64,000 nt of DNA. Source: Eubacterium sp. Lineage in GTDB: Bacteria > Bacillota > Clostridia > Lachnospirales > Lachnospiraceae. The position numbers and the translations under genes were made by a program. The stretch lies in NCBI GenBank assembly GCA_017477505.1, contig JAFUVQ010000054.1:143471-207470 (forward strand), given 5' to 3'. Shown here in pieces: positions 3,448-50,822 of the stretch. Within the stretch, counting starts at the first letter, position 1. Each line of letters begins with the position of its first letter. The notes beneath the pieces were generated by a model. The model did no database searches and was not told the origin of the DNA. It was given only the letters and a program-made list of their open reading frames with translations.

Positions 3448-4506
3448 ATGTTTAACTGGGAATCAAATGTAAGGCGTGTGGACCCATATGTTCCGGGTGA
3501 ACAGCCGAAGGAAGATAATATCATAAAGCTTAATACAAATGAAAATCCATATCCGCCTTCACCAAATGTGAAGATGGATGATGTGGATATAAGTTTATTC
3601 AGAAAGTACCCCGATCCTACAGCCGGGATGCTTGTTAAAACAATCGCCGAGTATCATGGAGTGAATGAAGATCAGGTTTTCGTCGGAGTGGGTTCAGACG
3701 ATGTTCTTGCAATGTCATTTATGACCTTCTTTAATTCAGAGAAGCCTATACTTTTCCCGGATATAACATATTCTTTCTATCCGGTGTGGGCAGAGGAGTT
3801 CAGGATTCCTTATAAGGCGGTTCCTCTGAATGATGATTTCAGAATCGTTAAGGAAGATTATTATACAGAAAACGGCGGAATAGTTTTCCCTAATCCGAAT
3901 GCACCGACGGGAATCGAAGAAAGCCTTTCATTTGTAAGAGATATACTTGATCATAACAGAGATTCGGTAGTTATCGTTGATGAGGCATATATCGATTTCG
4001 GAGGTGAGAGCGCCCTTTCTCTGATACCGGAATATGACAACCTTCTTGTTACAAGGACTTTTTCAAAATCCAGATCCATGGCAGGGCTTCGAATAGGCTA
4101 TGCCATCGGAAATGCAGAGATGATAAAATTCCTGTCGGATGTGAAATATTCATTTAATTCATATACCATGAACATGCCATCTATCATACTCGGTGTGAAG
4201 TCTATCGAAGATGATAAATACTTCAGGGAGACGGTTGAGAAGATCAAGGCTACAAGAGAGTGGTTCACTGAAGAATTAAGGAAGAGGGACTTCCACGTGC
4301 TTCCTTCATCTTCAAATTTTGTTTTTGCCGAGCATAAGGAACTTAGTGGTAGGGGTATCTTTGAAGCGGCTAAGAAGAAGGGCATTTATATGAGACATTT
4401 CAATGCGCCCCGTATCCAAAATTTCCTCAGGATCACCATAGGTACTGATGAGGAAATGAGGAGCGTGATCGAATTTCTTGATGAATTTTTTAAAATTTCT
4501 GCTTGA
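3448..4506 (+). CDS. hisC: Histidinol-phosphate aminotransferase
   Basis: A class I/II PLP-dependent aminotransferase of 352 residues that converts imidazole-acetol phosphate to histidinol phosphate in histidine synthesis. HisC features include the N-terminal NTNENPYPPSP, the NPNAPTG segment, VDEAYIDF and the PLP-lysine motif TFSKSRSMAGLRIGYA (lysine near residue 207). I chose ATG 3448 because AAAGGA lies 6 bases before it; an in-frame ATG at 3433 overlaps the previous stop but has no good ribosome binding site. No other his genes are near, so it sits as the last gene of the MoxR operon. Some HisC-type enzymes also act on aromatic keto acids, which would fit the neighbouring pheA operon, but that is inference. 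Confidence 0.9.
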   Translation: MFNWESNVRRVDPYVPGEQPKEDNIIKLNTNENPYPPSPNVKMDDVDISLFRKYPDPTAGMLVKTIAEYHGVNEDQVFVGVGSDDVLAMSFMTFFNSEKPILFPDITYSFYPVWAEEFRIPYKAVPLNDDFRIVKEDYYTENGGIVFPNPNAPTGIEESLSFVRDILDHNRDSVVIVDEAYIDFGGESALSLIPEYDNLLVTRTFSKSRSMAGLRIGYAIGNAEMIKFLSDVKYSFNSYTMNMPSIILGVKSIEDDKYFRETVEKIKATREWFTEELRKRDFHVLPSSSNFVFAEHKELSGRGIFEAAKKKGIYMRHFNAPRIQNFLRITIGTDEEMRSVIEFLDEFFKISA

Positions 4507-4531
4507 CGGGAGAAATACAATTTATTATAAT
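4503..4531 (+). promoter_or_regulatory. Promoter of the pheA leader
   Basis: TTGACG at 4503-4508, a 17-base spacer and a perfect TATAAT at 4526-4531 make a near-consensus sigma-A promoter that begins inside the hisC stop codon. Transcription would start near 4538, about 45 bases before the leader peptide. Confidence 0.75.
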
Positions 4532-4582
4532 CGTTTTCGTAATTTAAAGGAATAAAGCGTATTGTGCGCAGAGGTTGATTTC

Positions 4583-4696
4583 ATGACAGCATTAAGAACT
4601 GAAATGAATATTACAGCACAGGGATGCAGAGCATCCTTTATTTCTGATGCCTACTTTTACTTTTATTTTTATGGATTTAGGAGCTTAAAAGATTAG
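4583..4696 (+). CDS. Phe/Tyr-rich leader peptide of the pheA operon
   Basis: A 37-codon frame begins with ATG 4583, preceded by AGAGG at 4570-4574, and ends with TAG 4694. Residues 24-32 read YFYFYFYGF, seven of these nine codons packed into a continuous aromatic run (4652-4672) plus one more Phe codon at 4676. Such a run is the hallmark of an amino-acid attenuation leader. Charged tRNA-Phe or tRNA-Tyr shortage would stall the ribosome here. The stop codon touches the antiterminator arm (4695-4702), exactly where a sensing leader should end. It is too short for normal gene callers. Confidence 0.82.
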   Translation: MTALRTEMNITAQGCRASFISDAYFYFYFYGFRSLKD

Positions 4697-4770
4697 AAGC
4701 CGGCACGGAAGTATAAAGTATGAAATAATCATGGTTACTTACAGCGGCTTCTTTGATGAAGCCGCTTTTT
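4695..4770 (+). terminator. pheA attenuator: antiterminator/terminator switch
   Basis: The terminator stem is AGCGGCTTC (4743-4751) with GAAGCCGCT (4758-4766), followed by TTTT. The sequence AGAAGCCG at 4695-4702 is complementary to CGGCTTCT at 4745-4752, the 5' arm of that stem, so the two structures exclude each other. A ribosome stalled on the aromatic codons leaves 4695-4702 free and lets the operon be read; a ribosome that reaches the stop masks it and allows termination. Confidence 0.82.
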
Positions 4771-4900
4771 ATGTAGTAGTAAACTGCGTTTCCTACTACA
4801 TAACCCTCCGGGGGAAGCGCATTCGCGCGAGAGGTAGGATGCTTCGCATCCCGCGCTCAGCGCGGCGCATGTCGCGAGCAACATGCTTTATTATAAGAAA
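4771..4900. repeat. Intergenic hairpin repeat, copy A
   Basis: After the attenuator, the leader carries a block of nested inverted repeats: GTAGTA-AAACTGCGTTT-TACTAC, then AGCGCATTCGCGCGA, GGATGCTTCGCATCC and GCGCTCAGCGCG. Its first part recurs at 13421, 33420 and 45587; its last part (4853-4892) recurs almost exactly at 50783-50822. It is a dispersed non-coding repeat, not part of the pheA reading frame, although the frame stays open through it. Confidence 0.7.
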
Positions 4901-4913
4901 AGAGGAGAGAAAC

Positions 4914-6011
4914 ATGGACGAACTGATGACGAGCCGGCAGACTATCGAAGAGATTGATAAGGAAATGGCAAAGCTCTTTGAGAAGCGGATGGATGTGGCT
5001 GCTAAGATTGCGGCATATAAAAGAGAAAAGGGACTGGCTGTTAAGGACAGTGCCAGAGAGGATGCTCTTATAGAGAAAAACACCGGGAATATAGAGAATC
5101 CTGATTATGAAGGTTATTACGTAAATTTCTTAAGAAATACGATTGAGATTTCCAAAAGATATCAGGAGAAGCTTCTTTCGGGAATGAAAGTTGCCTATAG
5201 CGGAGCTGCAGGCGCATTTGCATATATAGCAGCAAAAACACTTTTCAGTGAAGCGGAGCTTATATGTAAACATGATTTCGGTCTTGCATATAAGAGTGTG
5301 GAAAATGGTGAATGTGACTGTGCGGTCCTTCCATTGGAAAACAGTTATGCGGGAGAGGTAAGTACGGTTCTTGATATGGCCTTTTCAGGAAGCCTTTTCA
5401 TCAATCAGGTAATAGACCTTCCGGTTAAGCATTGTCTTCTGGGACTTCCGGGAAGCGACAGAAACAGTATCAAGAAAGTAATCAGCCATCCGCAGGCTCT
5501 GGCACAGTGTGGTGATTATATAGAAAGACACGGCTTTACTACAAAGGGCTTCGGCAATACAGCTCTTGCAGCCGAAAGAGTTAAAGAGATGAATGATCCT
5601 TCTGTTGCTGCTATAGCATCAAAGGAAACAGCTGAGATCATGGGGCTCGAGATACTAGATGAAAATATTCAGGACAGCGGTATCAATACCACCAGATTCG
5701 GAGTTTTCTCAAGATCAGAGAATTCAAAGAAGCCTGAGGGAAGAAAAGATGATGAACAGTTCATCCTGGTATTTTCTGTAAAAAATGAAGCCGGTGCTCT
5801 TGCACAGACACTTAACATTATCGGCGCGCACGGTTATAATATGAGAAGCCTCAGAAGCCGTCCTATGAAGGGACTTCTCTGGGAGTATTACTTCTTCATC
5901 GAAGCGGAAGGAAATATTAATACTGAAAACGGACAGGATATGCTTAGAGAACTCGGAGCACTCTGCGCAAGGCTGAAGATGCTGGGTTCCTACAATACAT
6001 TTAATGCATAA
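4914..6011 (+). CDS. pheA: Bifunctional chorismate mutase/prephenate dehydratase
   Basis: A 365-residue P-protein that turns chorismate into prephenate and then phenylpyruvate, the committed branch to phenylalanine. Residues 1-85 are an AroQ-type chorismate mutase (helical, with RQTIEEIDKEMAKLFEKRMD). Residues about 92-275 are the prephenate dehydratase domain, with the NTTRFGVF catalytic motif near 258. Residues about 283-345 are an ACT domain (GALAQTLNIIGAHGYNM) for feedback by phenylalanine; the usual ESRP is SRP preceded by Arg here. ATG 4914 has AGAGGAGAG just upstream; the frame extends 183 bases further 5' but through a repeat and the attenuator. It is co-transcribed with the DAHP synthase downstream. 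Confidence 0.95.
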   Translation: MDELMTSRQTIEEIDKEMAKLFEKRMDVAAKIAAYKREKGLAVKDSAREDALIEKNTGNIENPDYEGYYVNFLRNTIEISKRYQEKLLSGMKVAYSGAAGAFAYIAAKTLFSEAELICKHDFGLAYKSVENGECDCAVLPLENSYAGEVSTVLDMAFSGSLFINQVIDLPVKHCLLGLPGSDRNSIKKVISHPQALAQCGDYIERHGFTTKGFGNTALAAERVKEMNDPSVAAIASKETAEIMGLEILDENIQDSGINTTRFGVFSRSENSKKPEGRKDDEQFILVFSVKNEAGALAQTLNIIGAHGYNMRSLRSRPMKGLLWEYYFFIEAEGNINTENGQDMLRELGALCARLKMLGSYNTFNA

Positions 6012-6048: not shown

Positions 6049-7077
6049 ATGAATTTAGAATGGAAGAGAGAACTGCCGTCAGCAAGAGTTGTAAAGGAAA
6101 TGTATCCTTTATCAGAGAAGGCAGCAGAGCAGAAGAAGGAAAATGATAAGGCAGTTCAGGATGTATTTCTTGGAAAGAGTGACAAGTTCATCCTTGTTAT
6201 AGGACCATGCTCAGCAGACAGAGCTGACGCAGTACTTGAATATATAGGAAGACTTAGAGAGGTACAGGACAAAGTCAGTGATAAGATAGTCATAGTTCCG
6301 AGAATATACACCAACAAGCCACGTACAACAGGCGTTGGATATAAGGGTATGCTTCATCAGCCGGATCCTGAAAGTGCACCTGATATGCTTAAGGGTATTA
6401 TGGCTATTAGAAAGCTTCATATAACCGCACTTGAGGAGACAGGCTTCTCATGTGCCGATGAGATGCTTTATCCGGAGAATCATTCATACCTTTCAGATGT
6501 TCTCTCATATGTTGCGGTAGGTGCAAGAAGTGTTGAAAATCAGATGCACCGTCTTACATCAAGCGGACTTGATATTCCTGTAGGTATGAAGAATCCTACA
6601 GGCGGTATGCTTTCGGTTATGATGAATGCCATGACTGCCGCACAGTCATCACATACATTTGTATATGCAGGCTGGGAGGTTAAGAGTAAGGGTAATCCTA
6701 TGGCTCATGCGATACTCCGTGGTTACTCACATAAATCCGGTCATTCTGCGCCTAACTACCATTACGAGGATCTGATGTTCCTTCATGAATTATATGAGAA
6801 GAGCAATCTCCAGAATCCTGCCGTAATAATCGATACGAACCATGCTAATTCCGACAAACAGTTTGATCAGCAGCCGCGTATCGCAAGTGAGATACTTCAC
6901 AGCATGAAGCTTTCCGATGATATAAGAAAGATGGTAAAGGGACTCATGATCGAGTCTTACCTTGTGGACGGCAATCAGAAGCCTGATGGCGGCGTTTACG
7001 GACAGTCCATAACGGATCCATGCCTTGGATGGGAAAAAACTGAGAAAATGATATATGATATAGCTGAGAAACTGTAA
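6049..7077 (+). CDS. 3-deoxy-7-phosphoheptulonate synthase (class I DAHP synthase)
   Basis: A 342-residue enzyme that condenses phosphoenolpyruvate and erythrose 4-phosphate, the first step of the shikimate pathway. Class I AroF/AroG/AroH motifs are visible: GPCSAD, a PRIYTNKPRTT segment, GYKGMLHQPD, KNPTGG, and DTNHANSDKQ near the C-terminus. The start at 6049 is set by AGGAGG 8 bases upstream. It follows pheA by 37 bases and ends the operon at the terminator at 7082. Placing the entry enzyme behind the Phe/Tyr attenuator means pathway entry and the phenylalanine branch share one control. Which isozyme name applies cannot be told from sequence alone. Confidence 0.94.
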   Translation: MNLEWKRELPSARVVKEMYPLSEKAAEQKKENDKAVQDVFLGKSDKFILVIGPCSADRADAVLEYIGRLREVQDKVSDKIVIVPRIYTNKPRTTGVGYKGMLHQPDPESAPDMLKGIMAIRKLHITALEETGFSCADEMLYPENHSYLSDVLSYVAVGARSVENQMHRLTSSGLDIPVGMKNPTGGMLSVMMNAMTAAQSSHTFVYAGWEVKSKGNPMAHAILRGYSHKSGHSAPNYHYEDLMFLHELYEKSNLQNPAVIIDTNHANSDKQFDQQPRIASEILHSMKLSDDIRKMVKGLMIESYLVDGNQKPDGGVYGQSITDPCLGWEKTEKMIYDIAEKL

Positions 7078-13403: not shown

Positions 13404-13420
13404 GGCTGATCTATATTGTT

Positions 13421-13475
13421 ATGTAATATGAAACTGCGTTTCCTATTACGCAAACCCTTAAGGGAAATGCATGTT
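13421..13475. repeat. Intergenic hairpin repeat, copy B
   Basis: GTAATA-(T)GAAACTGCGTTTCC-TATTAC with a following AACCCTTAAGGG stem repeats the layout of 4771-4810. It lies between the zinc-ribbon gene and the exporter operon and has no coding content. Confidence 0.7.
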
Positions 13476-33354: not shown

Positions 33355-33419
33355 GTTTAAAACCTCCATTTTTTGAGTGTGTTAATGGGTTCGTTAAGTG
33401 GCGGATGAGCCACATATTT

Positions 33420-33450
33420 ATGTAATTGGAAACTGAGTTTCCGATTATAT
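33420..33450. repeat. Intergenic hairpin repeat, copy C
   Basis: GTAATTGGAAAC-TGA-GTTTCCGATTAT forms a near-perfect hairpin of the same family as copies at 4771, 13421 and 45587. It lies between the 3' end of the DnaI-like gene and the prs start and may also terminate the former. Confidence 0.65.
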
Positions 33451-34437
33451 ACCCAGCTTTGAGTATCTGATGTTGCGGCCGAAGAATCGTAAGACTTTAT
33501 AGTTTCCGAGTATTCTGGAAACAGTTCTCTCGGTGTATCTTGATTTCAGTTCATTCGGATCCAGGTTAGTGGAAATAATTGTTGAATTCTTTCTTACAAG
33601 TCTCTGGTTGATAACTTCGAAAAATGAACTCTGCACAAATGAGTTTATGCTTTCTGTTCCGAGGTCATCTATTATAAGAAGTTCAGAACTGAAAAGTCTT
33701 TTATAGAGTCCTGAAATCCTTTCATCTTTTCTGTTTCTTACATATTCTGAATAAAGTTCGAAAAGTTCATTACTGGATACGTAAAGCACTTCGTGACCGT
33801 TATCCAGAAGCTCTTTGGCAATACAGTTGCACAGATAGGTCTTTCCGAGACCTATGGGGCCGAAGAGTAGTATGTTACTTCCTTTCGAACCGGTATCAAA
33901 TTCTTCGGTAAATGATTTTGCCGCGTTTACTACACGCTGTATATTATCATAAGGCGAAATTTTCTCATTTTCTGGAACATTTTTTGAAAAGTAATCAAAT
34001 GAGAAGTTCTGAAAATTTTCAACGTTAAGTACATTTATAAGATTGGAATTCTTATATAATTCGGCAGTGATGGTATTTCTGAGACAGGTGCACATCCTGC
34101 CGTCGATGTAGCCTGTATCTTTGCAGATCCCACAGGTGTATACCCGGTCCATATAATCGGCCGGATATCCGTTTTCTGTCAATATCTTCTTTTTGGATGC
34201 GGTAAGTTCTTCGGTTTTTCTCTTTATGGTTTCGGCATCCGGTGCATTGGCAGGATCGGTAATCCTTTTTCTTGCAGCATCTATGGCGAGAGATTTTATC
34301 TCTTTATCGATGCGGTCTATCTCCGGAAGTTTATCATAAATCTCTTCTTTATGTTTTTCCTGAAGCAGAAGATTCTGAAGACTCCGGTTGCCGTATTCTG
34401 CCATGATTCTGTCCATATTAACGGAATATAGGTTCAT
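33445..34437 (-). CDS. DnaI/DnaC-like replicative helicase loader
   Basis: A 330-residue AAA+ protein. The N-terminal part has a zinc-like cysteine set (CGICKDTGYIDGRMCTC), and the C-terminal AAA+ domain has Walker A GPIGLGKT (about residue 190), Walker B LLIIDDLGTE and STNLDPNEL. This fits the DnaC/DnaI loader that places the replicative helicase on DNA. Its start overlaps the stop of the DnaD-like gene by one base, the classic primosome operon. Confidence 0.92.
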   Translation of the reverse strand: MNLYSVNMDRIMAEYGNRSLQNLLLQEKHKEEIYDKLPEIDRIDKEIKSLAIDAARKRITDPANAPDAETIKRKTEELTASKKKILTENGYPADYMDRVYTCGICKDTGYIDGRMCTCLRNTITAELYKNSNLINVLNVENFQNFSFDYFSKNVPENEKISPYDNIQRVVNAAKSFTEEFDTGSKGSNILLFGPIGLGKTYLCNCIAKELLDNGHEVLYVSSNELFELYSEYVRNRKDERISGLYKRLFSSELLIIDDLGTESINSFVQSSFFEVINQRLVRKNSTIISTNLDPNELKSRYTERTVSRILGNYKVLRFFGRNIRYSKLGI

Positions 34438-50782: not shown

Positions 50783-50822
50783 GGCTCGGCGCGGCGCATG
50801 TCGCAAGCAACATGTTTTATTC
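50783..50822. repeat. Intergenic hairpin repeat, copy E
   Basis: GCTCGGCGCGGCGCATGTCG and the following AGCAACATG match 4853-4892 with few differences (for example CGAAGC versus CGAGC). GCATG/CATGT arms form a hairpin. It lies directly after pfp. Confidence 0.7.

Follow-up and report, generated by a model that had tools for sequence, protein, structure and literature searches.

The pheA gene of Escherichia coli and other gammaproteobacteria is preceded by a leader (pheL) that combines aromatic codons, a protector, an antiterminator and a terminator ahead of the coding region for chorismate mutase-prephenate dehydratase. The classical E. coli pheA leader is Phe-only. A NusA-sensitive pause has been measured at the E. 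coli/gammaproteobacterial pheL (PMC9291695). Another described motif, uORFC-13-1, places an upstream open reading frame (uORF) with one or more Phe codons and a terminator before aroF, and its authors suggest a further paired substructure (PMC8632094). Within the Firmicutes, an otherwise T-box-using phylum, leader-peptide attenuation is reported for histidine-codon leaders before his or hisS/hisZ genes (PMC9413887, PMC2965389) and for the branched-chain ilv-leu operon of Staphylococcus aureus, where a leader with Leu and Ile codons has mutational and reporter support (PMC5794164). T-boxes likewise sense tRNA charging through a terminator and an antiterminator, and they need no translation of a leader. 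In the openly accessible literature searched, no pheA leader-peptide attenuator in Clostridia was found.

The present analysis concerns a stretch of 64,000 nucleotides from Eubacterium sp. (Lachnospiraceae; contig JAFUVQ010000054.1), hereafter the window, in which a leader rich in Phe and Tyr codons precedes pheA and a DAHP synthase gene. It is very probable (roughly 0.88) that this leader acts as a ribosome-mediated transcription attenuator, sensing charged tRNA-Phe and tRNA-Tyr and gating both genes. The mechanism is classical attenuation, and what sets the window switch apart is its bivalence and a hairpin within the leader frame. It shares the elements of pheL, but its pause-type hairpin lies inside the leader frame, separate from the protector, its operon includes the DAHP synthase and the window has no Rfam match. 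The uORFC-13-1 motif resembles it in setting a Phe-codon uORF and a terminator before a DAHP synthase gene, but is reported only from Acholeplasma and environmental sequences; one or more Phe codons are required of it, its description mentions no run of Tyr codons, and the gene downstream is aroF rather than pheA (PMC8632094). The histidine leaders and the ilv-leu leader differ in codons and genes, the former also in lineage (PMC9413887, PMC2965389, PMC5794164), and the T-box differs in that the window carries no T-box signature.

Leader anatomy and folding of the proposed switch

Inspection and folding of the leader, all of whose features lie on the forward strand, demonstrate the anatomy and energetics of an attenuator. 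The upstream hisC ends at 4506, and a sigma-70-type promoter occupies 4503-4531 (TTGACG at 4503-4508, 17 nt, TATAAT at 4526-4531; 11 of 12 consensus bases). A translatable frame with Shine-Dalgarno-like site, start and stop follows (4570-4696): AGAGG at 4570-4574 stands 8 nt 5' of the ATG at 4583, from which 37 sense codons (MTALRTEMNITAQGCRASFISDAYFYFYFYGFRSLKD; 4583-4696 including the stop) run to the TAG at 4694-4696, while an alternative in-frame start, TTG at 4562, would give a leader of 44 aa. The control codons, Y F Y F Y F Y G F at 4652-4678, form a cluster for end products of the operon, with eight Phe or Tyr in ten residues against a maximum of five among 20 shuffles of the 500-nt upstream region. 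Promoter, ribosome-binding site and the 37-codon leader with its YFYFYFYGF run had been proposed in a sequence-only reading of this DNA, and each was found in its place, exact to the base.

Downstream of these codons, arm 2 of the antiterminator (AGAAGCCG, 4695-4702) begins within the leader stop codon and is complementary to 4745-4752. Arm 3 covers 4743-4752, where 4743-4751 forms the 5' side of the terminator and 4745-4752 also pairs with arm 2; arm 4, the 3' side of the terminator to 4766, and the U-tract occupy 4758-4770. The intrinsic terminator at 4743-4766 (4743-4751 with 4758-4766; 9 bp, a loop of 6, then TTTTATGT) lies before the first structural gene, and the control-codon region can instead pair with a stretch that includes arm 2 (the protector, 1:2; -17.8 kcal/mol for 4639-4710). 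The 8-bp antiterminator touching the leader stop and the 9-bp terminator with its T-run had likewise been predicted and are both present. The RNA of 4538-4775 is unusually stable (z = -3.89; none of 200 shuffles equally stable), and the antiterminator complementarity has a shuffle p of 0.035. A stretch with repeat copies (4766-4892; D1 4766-4822, D2 4855-4892) separates the terminator from pheA (4914-6011), whose chorismate mutase, prephenate dehydratase and ACT domains all score over the Pfam cut-off; a class I (aroFGH-type) DAHP synthase gene follows at 6049-7077. Pfam domains bear out both gene identities as first read from the sequence.

The unit was compared with a genus set of 61 genomes, 58 of which match the pheA protein. 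Only one holds a close copy of the window pheA, Lachnospiraceae bacterium YSB2008 (G003), at 90% identity. Both promoter hexamers (TTGACG and TATAAT) recur there, as do the GCxASFISxA core of the leader, its aromatic run, arm 2 and the terminator. The leader frame is homologous and intact apart from a 3-nt gap where the aromatic run begins; its antiterminator complementarity has a p of 0.005, and the repeat stretch has no counterpart there. The sequence-only reading had staked its case on leader frame and alternating stems being kept in close relatives, and in this one relative they are. A scan for promoters is by itself not above chance (6 found, 7.3 expected); the promoter draws its support from YSB2008, where both hexamers are kept while most of the spacer has diverged. 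The same comparison bears on the reading that the aromatic frame and the complementarity arose by chance and that 4743-4766 is a plain terminator of hisC, which ends just 5' of the unit. In YSB2008 the leader-terminator unit sits behind a different gene (a putative purA, not hisC), a promoter-like site separates hisC from the leader, and leaders rich in Phe and Tyr are enriched across relatives (see below), so that a coincidence of this kind deserves almost no credence.

In the proposed ribosome-mediated switch, transcription would start from the 4503-4531 promoter, and RNA polymerase would probably be held briefly at the in-frame hairpin (4620-4638) until the ribosome arrives. With Phe or Tyr in short supply, the ribosome is expected to stall on 4652-4678, short of arm 2 (4695-4702), which could then pair with arm 3 (4745-4752); this pairing would block the terminator and let the operon be read. 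With both amino acids plentiful, the ribosome would proceed to the TAG at 4694-4696 and mask arm 2, and the terminator at 4743-4766 would form. In the absence of translation, arm 2 would tend to be held in the protector fold.

Folding of the nascent RNA, before RNA polymerase has completed the terminator, agrees with this scheme. With RNA masked to a downstream edge at the A-site plus 14 nt (an assumed footprint), the probability of the 2:3 pairing is 0.96 with the A-site on any aromatic codon at 4652-4676, 0.62 at codon 4685 and 0.00 from codon 4688 to the stop at 4694. By folding, the antiterminator is mutually exclusive with the terminator, free at the stall and masked at the stop, as a ribosome-mediated transcription attenuator should be. 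In the nascent RNA free of ribosomes P(1:2) is 0.31 and P(2:3) 0.51, and an untranslated leader would accordingly not be tightly shut off. Over the full leader, again with no ribosome, P(1:2) is 0.67 and the terminator reaches 0.98. At equilibrium the complete RNA with a stalled ribosome gives the terminator a probability of 0.37-0.97, mostly in its favour, and the switch must therefore be kinetic.

The YSB2008 leader folds like that of the window although its stop lies 3' of arm 2. There a ribosome on the aromatic run leaves the terminator arm held at 0.78; this value drops to 0.41-0.69 at the intermediate codons and to 0.11-0.35 at the five final positions. Two further relatives were folded. 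One (L077) behaves like YSB2008, while the other (L097) fits less well, its hold on the terminator arm dropping already within the aromatic run.

Related leaders and the amino acids probably sensed

After YSB2008 the next relative is L036, whose pheA is 68% identical; its leader call is weak and it lacks a terminator. In most other members of the genus the match is confined to the dehydratase part (34-43% identity) and lies within longer frames. Twenty-eight genus loci (L008-L035) were scanned over 700 nt, of which only L008-L011 are a fair test of leader absence; for most of L012-L035 a frame of 560-690 aa surrounds the match and the 700 nt are therefore largely coding. L008 and L009, two genomes with a pheA copy at 48%, show no leader in the upstream scan. 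L010 carries at 1304-1402 a Phe-rich leader (MESAFVLACDFFASFIWFAFFTGKK...) and then a terminator before a prephenate dehydratase gene, perhaps a Phe-only relative. In three genomes (G001, G002, G032) the match is split (42-69% identity) over frames of about 300 aa, with residues of about 171-254 missing between the pieces.

For a wider set of pheA loci, the family was searched first, and 20 of its 396 genomes, the own genome among them, gave a match at E<=1e-85; a search of genome contigs with a pheA alignment supplied the rest (best 80 of 575). The 101 loci gave 100 rows, L137 being too short, and 35 rows scored at least six Phe or Tyr in ten. Once duplicate contig stretches (L095 of L007 and L065 of L037, both with a leader; L042/L089, without) are removed, 97 distinct pheA loci remain, of which 33 have such a leader; among 2000 shuffles the share is 1.65%. 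Counts given over 98 loci (terminators, palindrome, choice on Phe or Tyr) keep both L042 and L089, and the terminator and hairpin tests cover 35 leader loci, these 33 together with L043 and L044, which score 5 and were included by hand. All of the 35 but the doubtful L036 have a terminator between leader and pheA. Antiterminator complementarity reaches p<0.05 in 15 of 34 leader loci where 1.7 are expected, the other 19 not being significant singly. Strong terminators (at least as stable as -9 kcal/mol) lie no further than 200 nt from pheA in 32/35 leader loci and 17/63 others. Thirteen of those 17 (all but L078, L080, L086 and L102) were read by eye, and five proved to hold leaders missed by the criterion (L064, L088, L090, L108, L110). 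Two loci, L039 and L074, have a promoter-like sequence and a terminator with no leader frame, and are possibly lost leaders.

On a tree of 95 pheA proteins (without L095, L065, L137, L101, L132 and L096, with L108 labelled as leader and the bootstrap not settled), the leader label is clustered, with 19 changes against 28.5 in shuffles and none of 500 as low. Sixty of the 95 rows are labelled leaderless, some adjoining leader rows, and leaders are absent from all nine rows labelled Bacteroidota (eight) or Treponema (one). The window and YSB2008 belong to a section of the tree with 36 rows, 16 of them leader rows, and 11 of these 16 have a hairpin of the AVRFFAY type discussed below (at least 6 of 8 pairs). 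On this evidence, classical leader-peptide attenuation with Phe/Tyr bivalence recurs at pheA operons of Clostridia, a group for which T-boxes would be expected; many of these operons come, to judge by record titles, from gut and rumen samples. A sequence search for further leader copies in the own genome returned only the leader itself and one 24-nt match (E 0.36); a search there for the Phe/Tyr codon pattern was uninformative, with 5 sites against 17 in the backward control. At L049 a leader of this kind stands directly behind a tRNA gene (Rfam tRNA match).

That both Phe and Tyr are sensed, as had been suspected from the window alone, is well supported by codon choice across loci. Loci picked on Phe alone (at least four in ten) number 30 of 98, against 10.1% of shuffles, and Tyr makes up 24.6% of their other residues against 5.1% in shuffles. 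The other residues hardly move: in loci and shuffles, respectively, Ile stands at 6.4 and 6.5%, Asn at 4.7 and 5.3% and Trp at 0.6 and 1.1%, with Ser about level and Leu lower. Picking on Tyr alone gives 19 of 98 loci (0.7% of shuffles), with Phe at 37.6% against 4.8% and Trp, over few residues, at 1.8% against 0.0%. Selection on either of the two residues enriches the other but hardly Trp, which argues for dual sensing. Per ten-residue segment, the related leaders hold 3.43 Phe and 3.37 Tyr, about equal numbers, whereas the pheL leader of E. coli reads Phe alone.

That precedent invites the alternative of a Phe-only attenuator in which the Tyr codons are filler, U/A-rich and serving to keep the region weakly structured, and the L010 leader in the same genus (FFASFIWFAFF, before prephenate dehydratase) has no Tyr. 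Against this, the other U/A-rich residues Ile and Asn are not raised where Tyr is up about five-fold in Phe-picked loci, and 33 of 35 leaders have at least two Tyr in their ten-residue segment (a segment chosen on Phe plus Tyr); a Phe-only switch is accordingly unlikely. A different sensor would be the nascent peptide itself, arresting the ribosome on binding free Phe or Tyr in the manner of TnaC rather than reporting tRNA charging. The non-aromatic residues GCxASFISxA common to the window and YSB2008 would suit such a peptide, but that stretch also encodes the conserved hairpin and may be kept on that account, leaders from other lineages have by eye little in common beyond their aromatic runs, and arrest by excess amino acid would turn a biosynthetic operon on at the wrong time. 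Peptide-mediated arrest is thus very improbable, and sensing of both tRNAs through the translating ribosome is the reading followed here.

A hairpin inside the leader frame

Within the window leader and shortly 5' of the aromatic run, at 4620-4638, lies a hairpin (AGGGATGC-AGA-GCATCCTT, then TATTTCTG) that is a candidate RNA polymerase pause hairpin; its stem is kept in YSB2008. The sequence-only reading did not describe it. Related leaders have GCAGTACG-N8-CGTACTGC (encoding AVRFFAYC) in a comparable place, in several of them followed directly by TTTTTTTATTATTTT, that is, by Phe/Tyr codons.

Against synonymous recoding, the hairpin reaches p<0.05 in 8 of 35 leaders (1.75 expected). Seven of these are AVRFFAY leaders and the eighth, L063, has another hairpin; further AVRFFAY leaders give 0.053 (L040), 0.093 (L067), 0.152 (L043) and, in the opposite direction, 0.861 (L038). 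The window (p 0.093) and YSB2008 (0.099) are not significant singly. With only 8 of 35 leaders at p<0.05, the in-frame hairpin was rejected as a general leader feature.

Covariation was examined in 12 loci chosen for the hairpin. These are 20 candidates less nine with 3 to 7 of 8 pairs (L044, L105, L046, L069, L071, L082, L113, L132 and L109), plus L064. Both sides change in four of the eight pairs (none of 500 shuffles; at most one pair when slid), as in the compensatory GTAATACG/CGTATTAC of L064. In these 12 sequences 92.7% of cells pair (1/500 shuffles), a percentage biased upward by the choice of loci, and further pair types are not in excess (363/500 shuffles). When the AVRFFAY hairpin pattern was searched in 397 family genomes with one mismatch allowed, nine genomes matched and the backward control also gave nine matches. 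Judged by coordinates, the three exact matches and one with a mismatch (L148) fall at pheA leaders; the one-mismatch matches L140, L141, L142, L145 and L146 are not leaders.

The attenuation model requires RNA polymerase to wait for the ribosome (PMC1183508), and hairpin-linked pauses have been studied at trpL, hisL and pheL (PMC9291695). By analogy, the in-frame hairpin of this subset of leaders is likely an RNA polymerase pause site, separate from the protector. To read it as an early terminator would be bolder. In a tentative scheme, the U-tract of the hairpin would be the Phe/Tyr control codons themselves (UUU UUU UAU UAU UUU), with pause or early terminator and sensor in the same bases; such a two-checkpoint attenuator, possible but doubtful, would test leader translation at the first hairpin and Phe/Tyr supply at the second, conventional terminator. 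The hairpin offers a compact test of the idea that RNA polymerase and ribosome have to keep in step for attenuation.

As to its origin, the window hairpin (GGATGC-N3-GCATCC) is not unique, with five sites in the genome including one in the adjoining repeat stretch, and its sequence may for that reason derive from a repeat. The stretch at 4766-4892 includes GGATGCTTCGCATCC, the same stem as the leader hairpin. It is rich in palindromes, and related copies occur at 13416-13472 and 33415-33471 (D1) and at 50784-50821 (D2).

Operon context and possible further control

T-boxes are in use in this bacterium besides the attenuator, as the sequence-only reading had led one to expect of a Firmicute. 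RF00230 matches, all outside the window, lie over the cut-off at leuA and pheST and below it at trpE, thrS and aspS (gene names read from sequence). This use elsewhere in the genome raises the alternative that the pheA leader is itself a T-box, or another untranslated leader that binds tRNA or a ligand. The window, however, has no Rfam match at gathering score, RF00230 included. In the 800 nt before pheA, a strict regular expression picked up the T-box core motif at none of 101 loci, and 20 related leader loci yield no T-box, their only Rfam matches being one tRNA and one cobalamin riboswitch; an untranslated sensor is therefore a far-fetched reading. Nor do Rfam leader families such as Phe_leader match the window at gathering score. 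A translated attenuator at pheA would leave the cell with two sensing systems for the same tRNA-Phe, the pheST T-box and the pheA leader, which could be compared directly.

The DAHP synthase of the window operon is the only one found in the genome (one PF00793 match and no PF01474; genome 96.95% complete), and because of this the entire aromatic pathway appears to lie behind the switch, with Trp left unread. A leader that lacks a Trp codon and stands before the only DAHP synthase found poses a testable question, namely how the supply of Trp and folate is secured. Sensing of Phe and Tyr together fits the physiology, since pheA makes prephenate, which is common to both. As in the window, pheA is followed by DAHP synthase in L007, L036, L038 and L044; other leader loci have aroB, aroC or shikimate dehydrogenase after pheA (seven proteins in five loci, both shikimate dehydrogenases scoring below curated cut-offs). 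Upstream of tyrA in the own genome no attenuator was found by eye. The TyrA protein (prephenate dehydrogenase; L158 1216-2292, contig C39) has an N-terminal DAHP-synthase ferredoxin-like domain (PF18152).

A further element may act on the promoter region. The palindrome CTTTA-N6-TAAAG occurs exactly in L007, L037, L039 and L046, by eye beside the promoter, at a position that varies among loci relative to the -35 and -10 hexamers. These are four in 98 loci where 0.09 are expected, a figure that overstates the case since the pattern was defined after L007, L037 and L039 had been seen; only L046 is independent of that choice, and L037 and L039 are sisters on the tree. With one mismatch allowed, the palindrome is present in 13 of 98 loci (2.84 expected), among them the window, where the possible operator ATTTAAAGGAATAAAG at 4542-4557 departs from the pattern at one base. 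The palindrome may be the site of a further regulator. In the own genome the narrower pattern WTTTAAAGSRATAAAG matches the window site exactly and one other site with one mismatch.
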